Virus record (IMG/VR): IMGVR_UViG_3300040801_002960
Coordinates: 1 to 26,145 of that record
Source of the DNA: a virus
Length of the DNA stretch: 26,145 bases
Strand: one strand, 5' to 3'
Shown here: positions 2,239-21,453 of the stretch, piece by piece
Layout: each line of letters begins with the position of its first letter
How positions within the stretch are numbered: position 1 is the first letter of the stretch
Notes under the pieces: model-generated
What the model saw: only the letters and a program-made list of their open reading frames with translations
Databases searched by the model: none
What the model was told of the DNA's origin: nothing
Program-made: the position numbers and the translations under genes

Positions 2239-4454
2239 GCCTCACCCCCATCAGTAATCGTCCACAGGTTCGGCGCTTCGGTCAGCACCCCACGAGCCGT
2301 AGCTGCATCAGATGGTGCGGCGGTGTAGGTCGAGCTTCCGAAGCTCCAAACTAGCCCACTGGTGACAGTCTGCGCGGACCAGGCGATAAGCGTGGCGTCG
2401 TATAGCGCGGTGGTAGTGGCAGCGAGCGCCATAAAACCCACGCTGCCGCCTGCCGTTATTGCCTCGACATTAAATCCACTTACGTCGATGGAAGTCAGAC
2501 TGGAGCAGTTATAGAACATGTAGAAAATCGTCGTAACACTAGAAGTGTCAAACCCACTCACATCCAGAGAAGTCAGGCTAGAACATCCATTGAACATGTA
2601 GCCCATGTTCGTGACGATTGAAGTGTCAAACCCACTTACGTCCAGGGAAGTAAGGCTAGAACAACCGGCGAACATTTGGAGCATGTTCGTGACGATTGAA
2701 GTGTCGAATCCACTCACATCCAGAGAAGTCAGGTTGGAGCAGTTTTGGAACATATAAGACATGTTCGTAACGCGTTGTGTATCAAACCCGCTCACATCCA
2801 GAGAAGTCAGGCTGGAGCAGTTTTGGAACATATAAGCCATGCTAGTAACGCGCGACGTATCAAACCCGCTCACATCCAGAGTCGTCATACTGGAGCAGTT
2901 GTAGAATGTACGGGTCATATCCGTAACGCTACTTGATGGCCCATCCGCAGCGTTTGCAGTAACTAGATTCGTTGCTCCTCTAAAAGCCGTTGACAAGCTA
3001 ACCTGCCCCAACTTACCCCACTGGTCGATTGACTTAACCAGCGCAGCAGAGGTTCGATTCTCCTCTTTCGTGTAATAGTCGATGTGCGTCCACAAACCTT
3101 TGATCGAGATTTGATACTCACCCGCCGAGGCATAGACGTGATGCCTATCCGCGTCATCATGCGCAGTGATCGTGGAGGTTGCTGACCCATCGCCCCAATC
3201 GACAACCGCGTTGTAGGTGCCAGAGGCGGAGGTCGGCAAATAGAAGTCGAATGCCGGGGTCGCGGTCTCGATGGTAAACAGCATCGGCGCTGCCCCATCC
3301 CGTACCCATACCTCGCCCCAAGCAGTCCCGACACCGGGCTCGCTGGTAGCTCCGGAGGTGTGGGTACTGATCGCCACATAGACCCAACCTGCGTACTGCA
3401 CCGAGTCACATGCGGCATAGCTGGTGCCGGTCGTCCACTCGCCGCGCAAATTGGGAGAGGCGCAACCCTCGTAGACCGTGAAGGAGTCGATGGTCAGCGG
3501 CTCATCCGCAACGAGGTCGGTGCCATTGGCGTAGCTGACCCCGCCGATCCAGTCGGTAGCGGAGTCGGACAGCGTGGTGGTGACAGCCTGGAAGAGATTC
3601 GGCGTGGTGATGCTCGCGTCGTCGTAGTCGATGGCGTCTGCTGCTCTGGTGAGTTCCGTGCCGGTGGTGAGGATGCGGGATGTTGGTTTGTCTCCAGCTT
3701 CCATCTGCGCCCATAGAATGTCGATGTACTCTGTTCCGTCCGGGTCTATCATTCTGTGAAGTGAAGAAACATCTGACATACCCATCTGCACAATAGACGA
3801 AAGGTCTGTATTTATGTCAAAGACAACGATGCAGCGCCAGGTTGAGGAATCCAAAGCGACCATGCTGGAGGAAACGTAACCAGTCGATGTAAAGGCATTG
3901 GTTGTGCCATTGATAAGGTCAAACGTAACCGATGCTCCGCCGTCAGACAATGCCCCAACAGAGAGCACAAAATACTGTGCACCCAAATTACCCTTATCTA
4001 CATCTGCCCAGGCGCAATACCTCCCGGCTTGTGGAAATGTATTAGCACTCGCAGGACGTGCCCCGGTTGCAAAATTGCCTGTCCCTGCTGTTGCGGTCAT
4101 TCTCGTGCCGCTCACCGTGCATTGCGTTTGCGCGACCCAATTATCTAATGCAGACGAATAGATAATCCGGTTCGTCGCACTCGGCTCCATCAGCGGCTTG
4201 CCCGTACCGGTATAGACCCCCTCGCTCACTCGCGTTGCGCCGTACCAACGAACCTCATTGACCGCACACTGCACATGCACCCCGCTCGGCTGCTCATGGT
4301 AAGCAGTCGAAGCGCGGCTGAAGGTCGCGGCGTCGTCGAGGGTCAGAGATTCGAGGAGGTCTTGGAAGAGGAACGCATCGCCGGCTGTGGCCGCAGCCAC
4401 AGAGCTGAAGCTATTAAACAACCGAAACCTATCAAGTGCGCGGAAGCCAGACAT
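2235..4454 (-). CDS. Tail fibre-like protein with BspA/DUF285 repeats, 739 aa
   Basis: Likely the receptor-binding or fibre protein. The N-terminal part (about 1-300) contains a phage tail pattern with a concanavalin/CBM-like section (ATFSRASTAYHEQPSG; EPSATNRIIYSSALDNW). At about 385-460 is a PKD/BspA-type lead-in (VVDWGDGSATSTITAHDD, then HHVYASAGEYQISIKG). From about 508 to 665 come six 26-residue units of the form VTxMxxMFxNCSSLTSLDVSGFDTS, the signature of the DUF285/BspA-like leucine-rich repeat family found on surface proteins of many bacteria. Each repeat is exactly 78 bp in DNA. A short capping domain follows (ALYDATLIAWSAQ...). It lies 9 bp downstream of a small virion gene and overlaps the 326-aa gene. 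The surface-recognition role is inferred from the family and its position. Confidence 0.75.
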   Translation of the reverse strand: MSGFRALDRFRLFNSFSSVAAATAGDAFLFQDLLESLTLDDAATFSRASTAYHEQPSGVHVQCAVNEVRWYGATRVSEGVYTGTGKPLMEPSATNRIIYSSALDNWVAQTQCTVSGTRMTATAGTGNFATGARPASANTFPQAGRYCAWADVDKGNLGAQYFVLSVGALSDGGASVTFDLINGTTNAFTSTGYVSSSMVALDSSTWRCIVVFDINTDLSSIVQMGMSDVSSLHRMIDPDGTEYIDILWAQMEAGDKPTSRILTTGTELTRAADAIDYDDASITTPNLFQAVTTTLSDSATDWIGGVSYANGTDLVADEPLTIDSFTVYEGCASPNLRGEWTTGTSYAACDSVQYAGWVYVAISTHTSGATSEPGVGTAWGEVWVRDGAAPMLFTIETATPAFDFYLPTSASGTYNAVVDWGDGSATSTITAHDDADRHHVYASAGEYQISIKGLWTHIDYYTKEENRTSAALVKSIDQWGKLGQVSLSTAFRGATNLVTANAADGPSSSVTDMTRTFYNCSSMTTLDVSGFDTSRVTSMAYMFQNCSSLTSLDVSGFDTQRVTNMSYMFQNCSNLTSLDVSGFDTSIVTNMLQMFAGCSSLTSLDVSGFDTSIVTNMGYMFNGCSSLTSLDVSGFDTSSVTTIFYMFYNCSSLTSIDVSGFNVEAITAGGSVGFMALAATTTALYDATLIAWSAQTVTSGLVWSFGSSTYTAAPSDAATARGVLTEAPNLWTITDGGEA
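2460..2930. repeat. Six tandem 78-bp coding repeats (DUF285/PARCEL type)
   Basis: The anchor CTCACATC or CTTACGTC recurs at 2479, 2557, 2635, 2713, 2791 and 2869, exactly 78 bp apart. In three units a GAACAT...ATGTTC inverted repeat marks the end of the unit (for example near 2592-2610, 2671-2690 and 2747-2766), and it is degraded in the outer units. Near-identical DNA between units suggests recent tandem duplication or conversion. Confidence 0.85.
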
Positions 4455-19410: not shown

Positions 19411-19439
19411 TTTACCATCCCCACAAAATATGGTATAGT
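19411..19439 (+). promoter_or_regulatory. Sigma70-type promoter of the 160-aa gene
   Basis: TTTACC (19411-19416), a 17-bp spacer and TATAGT (19434-19439) with an extended TGG element. Start near 19446, 27 nt before the gene. The spacer end ATATGG resembles that of the promoter at 16730. Confidence 0.75.
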
Positions 19440-19472: not shown

Positions 19473-19955
19473 ATGACCGGCCTCATCATCCGAAAAACCC
19501 CCGAGCTAAAAGAGCGCCTCAGAAAGCTGAAGCTCGCCTCCGAGGCAAAGCCCGCAAGCTCAAAGCCTCGGTCCTCTGCTCCCCGCGTGAAGCGCTTTCT
19601 TCCCGGCGAAACCCGCGCCACTGTCGGCGCCGAAGGCTTCCGCGATCTTCGCCCCGACACCTACGGGCGAGCCACTGTTCGTAACGTCCTCTATGGCCAG
19701 GGCGGACTAATCGAGCGGGATCTCAATCCTCCTCGCCACACAGCACACGTGAACATCGGTGGCGAAGAGATCTCTCCCTGGTCCCTCGACTGCCACCAGA
19801 AGACGAGCATTCACCGCCTCTGCCGTCAGAAGCAGGGTGCAGAGTATATCAATAAATTCCTCACTTCCCTCCTCCACGCCGAGTACCGCGTCTGGAGCAT
19901 AAACGGCTGGACCTACCGCCAAGTCACCGCAGACACCTTCCCGCAGGAGATCTGA
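19473..19955 (+). CDS. Hypothetical protein, 160 aa
   Basis: Driven by its own promoter and a GGGAG ribosome site. The N-terminus is a basic helical segment (LKERLRKLKLASEAKPASSK) followed by a Ser/Pro/Lys-rich linker, then a mixed domain (RDLRPDTYGRATVRNVLYGQ; HVNIGGEEISPWSLDCHQKT; HRLCRQKQGAEYINKFLTSL) ending YRVWSINGWTYRQVTAD. Basic N-terminus and linker suggest nucleic-acid binding. It is coupled to the next gene (2-bp gap). No family is recognised. Confidence 0.7.
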   Translation: MTGLIIRKTPELKERLRKLKLASEAKPASSKPRSSAPRVKRFLPGETRATVGAEGFRDLRPDTYGRATVRNVLYGQGGLIERDLNPPRHTAHVNIGGEEISPWSLDCHQKTSIHRLCRQKQGAEYINKFLTSLLHAEYRVWSINGWTYRQVTADTFPQEI

Positions 19956-19957
19956 TA

Positions 19958-20308
19958 ATGAAAAGCTACCTCAACTTCCGCGAAAAGACAGAACTGGCAG
20001 AGAAGCTCAAGCAGCTTATAAACACCACGCCCGAGTCCAAGAACTGTGGATGGGAGGAACTCCCCCTCATCCTCAACGAAATCCACGGCACCGAGTATTC
20101 TGTCACTAACTGCCGCACCGTCGCCATCGCCCTCGGCCTCGACTCCTACTTCAAAGCCTCGCAGTCCCGAAAGGAGCGCATCGACACGCGCGTCTCCCAC
20201 CTCGAAGAGCAGCTCGCAGCCGTGACGCAGCGCCTCGAGATCTGCGAGCGCAAGTGGCTCCAGCACCTTCAGGGGCACACAGCACCCGCAACGGAGCAAA
20301 ACCCGTAG
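19958..20308 (+). CDS. Putative small regulator with a helical and coiled-coil plan, 116 aa
   Basis: A good AGGAG ribosome site precedes ATG 19958. Residues about 1-60 are helical with a compact arrangement (FREKTELAEKLKQLINTTPE; EELPLILNEIHGTEYSVTNC; RTVAIALGLDSYFKAS), and the segment TNCRTVAIALGL resembles the recognition part of a small helix-turn-helix. The C-terminal half is a probable coiled coil (RVSHLEEQLAAVTQRLEICE). DNA-binding domain plus coiled coil would suit a dimeric phage regulator, for example acting at the tandem operators, but this is inference. The stop lies in hairpin-B copy 2. Confidence 0.6.
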   Translation: MKSYLNFREKTELAEKLKQLINTTPESKNCGWEELPLILNEIHGTEYSVTNCRTVAIALGLDSYFKASQSRKERIDTRVSHLEEQLAAVTQRLEICERKWLQHLQGHTAPATEQNP

Positions 20309-20340
20309 GGCCAAAATCCTCGATTTTGTGCCCACACCAT
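20294..20340 (+). repeat. Hairpin element B, copy 2
   Basis: GGGCCAAAAT (20308-20317) pairs with ATTTTGTGCCC (20323-20333, T20329 bulged) around the 5-nt loop CCTCG. It aligns with 17316-17362; the GG next to AAAAT in copy 1 is CC here, with matching changes on the other arm. It overlaps the stop codon of the 116-aa gene. Confidence 0.65.
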
Positions 20341-20353
20341 TTACTCTAAAACC

Positions 20354-20461
20354 AGCGCCTAGCCGCGAGTGGCGCTTCAAGTAACTCGCGGCAGCCAAGG
20401 CGGCGCAGTCAGTCTTCGCCACTGGCTGCTCCTCCCCCCCAAGGGCCCGCCGTGACTTGGC
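20354..20461 (+). ncRNA. Candidate structured RNA leader with an H-type pseudoknot
   Basis: AGCGCC (20354-20359) pairs with GGCGCT (20371-20376), while GCCGCGAG (20362-20369), lying in that loop, pairs with CTCGCGGC (20385-20392): stems of 6 and 8 bp with joining loops of 2, 1 and 8 nt, a textbook H-type pseudoknot. Next, GCCAA (20394-20398) pairs with TTGGC (20457-20461), GGCGG (20399-20403) with CCGCC (20447-20451), and within it GCAGTCAGT (20405-20413) with ACTGGCTGC (20421-20429). It stands 46 nt before the start of an A+T-rich gene, so it may be a cis-regulatory element or an independent RNA. The family is unknown; the folding is by hand. Confidence 0.5.
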
Positions 20462-20507
20462 CAAGGGATCATCCAGCAAGGACGCTTTTATTCACAGGAG
20501 AAAACAA

Positions 20508-20825
20508 ATGAGTATTAATCTTACTTTAAAAAGATGTGATGAAATTGATAATTGGTATGTTTTAATAAATAAGGATACAGGAGACCGAGTTCCTTATTCT
20601 GTTTCCGTCGAAGGAACAAAAGAAGAGTGGATACTGATTTTAGCAGCAATTTTATCTGGTGTTGATGAATCATTTAAAAGATGTGCTGTTGGTGTTACTC
20701 GTTGCAAAGATAAAAAAGAATTTATTTTTTATAGTCCAAGAAATTCATATGAAACTTATGATTTTTATGAAGCTACTGATGAACAAGTTAAACAATTAAT
20801 AAAAAATGCCTTTGAAGAGGATTAA
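20508..20825 (+). CDS. A+T-rich, probably foreign gene, 105 aa
   Basis: ATG 20508 follows CACAGGAG by 7 nt; the frame extends upstream to a TTG at 20457 inside the structured leader, but the AGGAG/ATG pair decides the start. The codons are AAA/AAT/TTT-type, unlike the neighbours: G+C is 13 of 60 bases at 20521-20580 and 14 of 60 at 20701-20760, far below the rest of the arm. The protein (MSINLTLKRCDEIDNWYVLI; NKDTGDRVPYSVSVEGTKEE; YSPRNSYETYDFYEATDEQ) is compact alpha/beta with an acidic C-terminus. No family is recognised. Codon use points to a recent acquisition from an A+T-rich genome. Confidence 0.8.
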   Translation: MSINLTLKRCDEIDNWYVLINKDTGDRVPYSVSVEGTKEEWILILAAILSGVDESFKRCAVGVTRCKDKKEFIFYSPRNSYETYDFYEATDEQVKQLIKNAFEED

Positions 20826-20833
20826 ACAAACCC

Positions 20834-21214
20834 ATGATTACAGAACTTGATCTAGCTATAAAGCACTGGTGGGATAACGCCCGCAAACACGACGAAGGGC
20901 TACCCTACTCAATCTCAGCAGGTTCTTGTAGCCTGTGTATGAATCGAGAAACAGATTATGGTGTACTCTGCGACATGAAAGGAAGCCCATGTCCTATCTA
21001 CCAAGTCACTCAAAAAGAGGATTGTTTTGATACTCCGTGGTATGATATACTGCATAAGGAGTTACACCCAGTAGTCATGGCTTGGTGGCTGGAGGATCTC
21101 CGCGCCGGGCGCGCCAGCCCATTCCTATATGGGTCTCTGGCCTATTATTACCTTAAGCATGCCTTTCCATTTCGTGAGAATACCACTCCATTTAGAGAAT
21201 CAACAGAGTCATGA
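20834..21214 (+). CDS. Cys-rich protein, possible zinc binder, 126 aa
   Basis: ATG 20834 is 8 bp after the A+T-rich gene with AGAGG as ribosome site. The segment SAGSCSLCMNRETDYGVLCD with a following SPCPIY supplies four Cys (about residues 34, 37, 48 and 55) in a CxxC...C...C pattern that fits a zinc ribbon. Phage proteins with a 'CSLC...C...CPIY' section and an N-terminal helix (ELDLAIKHWWDNARKH) are familiar to me but unnamed. The C-terminus is hydrophobic and aromatic (MAWWLEDLRAGRA; LYGSLAYYYLKHAFPF). Composition is intermediate between the A+T-rich gene and the arm. Confidence 0.7.
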   Translation: MITELDLAIKHWWDNARKHDEGLPYSISAGSCSLCMNRETDYGVLCDMKGSPCPIYQVTQKEDCFDTPWYDILHKELHPVVMAWWLEDLRAGRASPFLYGSLAYYYLKHAFPFRENTTPFRESTES

Positions 21215-21453
21215 ACACCGAGCAAATCTGTCGCGCCCTCCGCATCGACTGGAAGGTCGCCCACCAAGCAACAACCCGCGAGGACCAAATCCACCGCTGG
21301 AGATCCATCGTCGGAGTAATCGACGGCCTCATCCTCGCCCTCATCTACTGCCTCGACGAGCCGCTTCCTGACGAGATCTACGAGGAACTCCGAGGCGAAC
21401 TCGAACTCCTCCGCGCCATCGCCTACGATCACCTGTATTGGAGCCTCTTATGA
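21211..21453 (+). CDS. Hypothetical helical protein, 80 aa
   Basis: Starts in the stop of the preceding gene (ATGA, 21211-21214) and ends in the next ATG (21450-21453). The 80 residues are helical and acidic, with two amphipathic segments (RSIVGVIDGLILALIYCLDE; YEELRGELELLRAIAYDHLY). The first could be a peripheral membrane helix. It belongs to the overlapping mini-gene run; no family is recognised. Confidence 0.65.
   Translation: MNTEQICRALRIDWKVAHQATTREDQIHRWRSIVGVIDGLILALIYCLDEPLPDEIYEELRGELELLRAIAYDHLYWSLL

Follow-up and report, generated by a model that had tools for sequence, protein, structure and literature searches.

A probable divergent relative of the Proteo-phage-1 RNA (RF03044) upstream of an A+T-rich orphan gene in a virus record

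A probable Proteo-phage-1-like RNA

The window analysed here is a linear virus record, 26,145 bases in length. It carries a predicted structured RNA which, judged from the sequence and its relatives, is probably (probability about 0.78) both a divergent, sub-threshold relative of Proteo-phage-1 (RF03044), without being a formal Rfam member, and unlinked to the A+T-rich gene that follows it. RF03044 is an uncharacterised RNA of Pseudomonas phages. The region had been assigned to an unknown class in a first-pass annotation; this relationship replaces that assignment.

Structural genes (terminase, portal or head-tail adaptor, tail) occupy the minus strand from approximately 1.2 to 14.3 kb, and the plus strand from approximately 15 kb onwards encodes an amidase-type endolysin and a UvrD-like helicase alongside numerous small genes. 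The RNA element is intergenic, flanked by plus-strand genes at 19958-20308 and 20508-20825; a simple ORF caller applied to the direction of flanking genes proved too noisy in G+C-rich DNA and was set aside. The closest phage relatives by terminase are L143-L147 (66-74% identity) and by helicase L142 (45%). The RNA was not found in these, but they are fragments lacking the early region, so its absence is uninformative. The features of the region are as follows.

20308-20333, plus strand: 5' hairpin GGGC-CAAAATC-CTC-GATTTTG-(T)-GCCC (fold -14.4 kcal/mol), immediately at the upstream gene's stop codon
20349-20466, plus strand: homologous core S1-S2-P3 (model R2, built without the window)
20354-20359 with 20371-20376, plus strand: helix S1, AGCGCC/GGCGCT, perfectly paired and covarying in relatives
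20362-20369 with 20385-20392, plus strand: helix S2, GCCGCGAG/CTCGCGGC, perfectly paired, with two-sided changes in relatives
20368-20371, plus strand: conserved AGTG of the pseudoknot
20377-20384, plus strand: A-containing loop L3
20394-20399 with 20456-20461, plus strand: stem P3, GCCAAG/CTTGGC, beyond the 3' limit of the Rfam model (CAGCC)
20400-20403 with 20447-20450, plus strand: P3 inner helix, GCGG/CCGC
20405-20413 with 20421-20429, plus strand: 9-bp inner hairpin of P3
20452-20455, plus strand: conserved GTGA bulge, directly before the 3' strand of P3
20472-20482, plus strand: weak candidate hairpin P4, TCC-AGCAA-GGA (3 bp only, from sequence inspection)
20508-20825, plus strand: A+T-rich orphan gene (105 aa), interpreted as cargo outside the RNA element

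An Rfam scan of the window gave no match at the gathering threshold; below the threshold, RF03044 was the best match to the region (20303-20396, 18.6 bits against the curated gathering score of 42). The site was not recovered when the whole window was searched with RF03044 with filters on, and a DNA similarity search of the region against phage records returned no match. In the RF03044 alignment, the AGCCG..AGTG..AAC..CGGCAGCC of the window falls on the conserved letters of the family, and the S1 helix around AGCCG..AGUG is present. The hairpin directly 5' of S1 (Rfam P0) is missing from the window, and several divergent relatives differ here too. The hairpin at 20308-20333 is a possible counterpart of P0: it is spanned by the weak RF03044 match and lies 20 nt from S1, whereas P0 adjoins S1 in the family.

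The Rfam model as printed pairs only S1 and the upstream hairpin and treats the positions of S2 as unpaired. Two further models were used, neither of them trained on the window. With R1, a core model scoring S2 only, the RNA site ranked first in the window (E 0.013). With R2, which was made from relatives and scores S2 and P3 with S1 excluded, 20349-20466 again ranked first (25.9 bits, E 5.5e-5), and S1 contributes six Watson-Crick pairs beyond anything that R2 scores. The second-best R2 match (4038-4141, 17.1 bits) runs antisense to a tail gene; it was treated as a chance match. A literature search, whose scope did not extend to the original description of 2017, returned nothing on this RNA.

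Fold and covariation among relatives

An H-type pseudoknot had been drawn from the letters of the sequence, and both stems stand exactly where it placed them, perfectly paired and with joints of 2, 1 and 8 nt: S1 consists of six Watson-Crick pairs, and S2, pseudoknotted with it, of 8 bp. The window, L048, L126 and phage vB_Pae_U7 have an S1 register in common, one that takes in the G of AGUG. Folding of the 148-nt RNA gave -61.2 kcal/mol (z = -3.05 against shuffles). The covariation of the relatives, the independent profile and the comparison with chance matches all back the view that this is a genuine structured pseudoknot RNA. The further stem with a 9-bp inner hairpin, also proposed earlier, is present and corresponds to P3 (GCCAAG/CTTGGC, GCGG/CCGC).

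Scanning viral contigs for the pattern of conserved words yielded more than 120 records, and 17 of 18 that were tested scored 64-81 bits with RF03044. Across 20 genomes the scores form a gradient that takes in accepted and divergent members, from 82 bits in phiAH14a through 55 (L021), 41.7 (L014), 33.7 (L048 and phage U7), 28.9 (PMG1) and 23.2 (L126) to 18.6 in the window. Proteo-phage-1 RNA was detected in 36 of 149 Pseudomonas genomes and in two of 369 genomes sampled across the class, one of the two being the centre Pseudomonas genome. Pattern scans for nearer relatives found only L126 and the L294/L323 type, the latter sharing a CT-AGCC joint and a P3 of GCCATAG/CTATGGC. A genome-wide word scan gave mostly chance matches and was kept as a background set. 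In one Pseudomonas genome (G532) RF03044 occurs four times on a single chromosome, presumably in several prophages. The RNA of Pseudomonas phage PP9W2 (L272) has lost part of the pseudoknot core but retains its 5' part and its terminal hairpin.

Covariance analysis, which could have spoken against the pseudoknot, revealed compensatory changes in S1, S2 and P3 of the relatives. In alignment A4 (diverse family members, window included), two-sided changes affect 5/5 pairs of S1 and 5/6 pairs of S2, with a covariation score of 0.518, compared with 0.129 for shuffles and no more than 0.171 for slid registers. S2 occurs as GCCGG/CCGGC, GCGGG/CCCGC (PMG1, U7), CTCGG/CCGAG (L284) and TGCGG/CCGCA (L280). 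In an alignment without the window, four of the six P3 pairs are altered on both strands; in relatives the stem runs from the GCC of CAGCC to GGC, with variants such as GCCAAG/CTTGGC (window, L021), GCCATC/GATGGC (L045), GCCGGG/CCCGGC (L048) and GCAGCG/CGCTGC (PMG1). Its 3' strand is preceded by a bulge of GTGA, GCGA or ACGA in many members. The window has the same arrangement, with P3 starting at the GCC of CAGCC and a [GA]NGA bulge, here GTGA, before the 3' strand. CTTGGC is thus the conserved partner of GCCAAG, and CTTGGCCAAG, once suggested to be a competing strand that could switch the fold, is part of a static one as the normal 3' strand of P3 after the conserved GUGA bulge. The position of the candidate P4 is that of a GNRA-like hairpin following P3 in relatives.

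Transcription context and possible role

No promoter-like site was seen on the plus strand between 19959 and the RNA, nor any terminator-like site at 19900-21300 of the window. An extended -10 promoter-like site (TTTACC-17-TATAGT with TG) is located at 19411-19439, 34 nt upstream of the gene at 19473; judged by its sequence, it could be the source of an RNA-containing transcript.

In phages the RNA occurs as one copy per phage in two settings, the early operon or the lysis side. The PS-1 copy belongs to the early leftward operon, and those of phiAH14a and Solano have replication or nin genes on one side and lysis genes on the other; in annotated phages the RNA is co-directional within long operons. 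For the lysis-side group, an intrinsic terminator was found upstream in 64/86 sites (6.5% at control positions), approximately 57-66 nt before AGCC, and downstream in 51/86 (control 16%), these counts covering all records, related ones included, with control positions of random strand. In the early-operon group, such terminators were found in 3/24 on either side. The RNA of Solano begins approximately 20 nt past the T-run of the upstream terminator, with no promoter-like site between. In a group with TGGAC before S1 (e.g. L018, L004, L273), two intrinsic terminators bracket the RNA and leave almost no room for a promoter. In both settings the RNA, which lacks an evident promoter, therefore seems to arise through read-through, within longer transcripts.

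The functional RNA may extend over 20303-20490, around the homologous core at 20349-20466. It would be carried on the early operon transcript of the phage with no promoter of its own and would itself be the functional product, not a sensor for the gene that follows; the A+T-rich gene would be mosaic cargo at its 3' border, as unrelated genes are in Pseudomonas phages. It is tentatively proposed, at somewhat less than even odds, that a stable structured RNA is released from the operon transcript and acts in trans by binding a protein of the host or the phage.

Such a processed, trans-acting RNA is favoured over a cis element similar to put of phage HK022, in which the nascent pseudoknot and P3 would modify RNA polymerase so that downstream pauses and terminators are ignored. 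The co-directional location within long operons fits a cis element, as do the terminators of the lysis-side group with little promoter room between them, and put RNA itself acts alone in cis against intrinsic and Rho-dependent termination (PMC9378689). Nevertheless, the upstream terminator must be passed before the RNA exists, early-operon members including that of the window have no or few flanking terminators, and the terminator counts include related records. Furthermore, put, an RNA of approximately 70 nt, has two stem-loops and is located near early promoters (PMC9378689), whereas these RNAs are pseudoknotted and lie kilobases into an operon. A cis role is regarded as the next most likely, at odds well below even. 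It is less likely still that Proteo-phage-1 RNAs, including that of the window, form a second natural class of antiterminator RNAs that work without protein, in which the pseudoknot and P3 would ride on RNA polymerase past the terminators flanking lysis-side members.

Chance resemblance and the downstream gene

That the pseudoknot arose by chance in a G+C-rich intergenic stretch and resembles RF03044 by coincidence is considered very improbable. In 4.76 Mb of other DNA, perfect pseudoknots of the same geometry occur at 11 distinct sites, so that about 0.12 would be expected per window; geometry alone is therefore not decisive, and the pseudoknot is held to be more than chance on account of homology and covariation. 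The RF03044 score is below threshold, and control matches holding the conserved words, drawn from hundreds of gigabases, scored between 20 and 27 bits in R1 and as high as 28 in R2. Since these exceed the R1 score of the window and resemble its R2 score, family membership rests on the joint evidence. Among 137 such chance matches, none combined an S1 of at least 6 with an S2 of at least 8, and none had S1, S2, P3 and the bulge together; the window has both combinations. While the comparison sites were picked from whole collections, here a single record of 26 kb combines the words with S1, S2, P3 and the GUGA bulge, at an intergenic site in a phage early operon, as in relatives.

The contrast in base composition described earlier holds, the gene at 20508-20825 having 29% G+C and the RNA 63%. 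The proposed link between the two was refuted as far as it could be tested. Searches of Pfam, PHROGs, PADLOC, NCBIfam, viral contigs, phages and plasmids turned up no relative of the 105-aa protein, and near-identical RNAs with a similar ribosome-binding stretch are followed by differing genes in PMG1, U7, Marin, P7869, PAE2 and D14O. The RNA is thus not associated with one gene or pathway, as a riboswitch or gene-specific leader would be; the varied downstream genes indicate that the A+T-rich gene is cargo and the RNA not its private leader. Nothing was found in favour of a riboswitch, ribozyme or guide-type function.

A riboswitch-like or autogenous translational repressor of the A+T-rich gene with CTTGGCCAAG as switch strand, to which the closeness of the RNA end to a ribosome-binding site (AGGAG) and start codon and the occurrence of H-type pseudoknots in autogenous control (T4 gene 32) would lend themselves, is very improbable and already largely refuted, because elsewhere the same RNA precedes unrelated genes, tRNA-Gly genes, or terminators and lysis genes, CTTGGC is engaged in P3, and the 105-aa gene shows no co-occurrence.

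Several individual 3' neighbourhoods were also recorded. In Pseudomonas phage Marin (L275), IS66-type transposon genes lie shortly 3' of the RNA. A tRNA-Gly(TCC) lies directly 3' of it in L007 (2162-2238), L025 (2432-2508) and L015 (2854-3011), L015 also having a tRNA-Met. In one group of relatives, e.g. L009 (minus strand) and L045, a long hairpin (TGCATCGG.../...CCGATGCA) comes after the RNA. Its apex is highly variable and in L009 resembles a tRNA, although ARAGORN did not call it.

Significance and comparison with known systems

Comparison across genomes establishes that the predicted fold and its location are conserved and that the RNA is independent of the next gene. An RNA considered unknown is now placed in a family, and covariation backs a pseudoknot and an additional stem, neither of which is scored by the Rfam model used in the scan; S2 and P3 are compared here with that model and not with the original description (Nucleic Acids Res. 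2017). The Proteo-phage-1 family would thereby extend to a phage type unlike its usual Pseudomonas carriers. The genomic pattern (single copy, two settings, terminators flanking lysis-side members on both sides, and swapped neighbours) makes the function of the RNA testable in ordinary Pseudomonas phages and with laboratory reporters.

With Proteo-phage-1 the RNA of the window shares S1, the AGCCG..AGUG words, an A-rich loop with AAC, CGGCAGCC and the location in a phage, and with its relatives also S2 and P3. It differs in having no 5' hairpin adjoining S1, in an S1 that takes in the G of AGUG, in an S1-S2 joint of UA instead of GAUNA, in an S2 of 8 bp and in a score far under the Rfam cut-off. 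Like HK022 put, it is a phage-encoded structured RNA embedded in an operon, and its action is possibly analogous, although no sequence relation was found and put gave no match in the Rfam scan. The leader of T4 gene 32 is a gene-specific H-type pseudoknot that binds the product of its own gene. It resembles the present RNA in being an H-type pseudoknot that precedes a start codon in phage mRNA; there the element is specific to one gene, whereas here the downstream gene varies.
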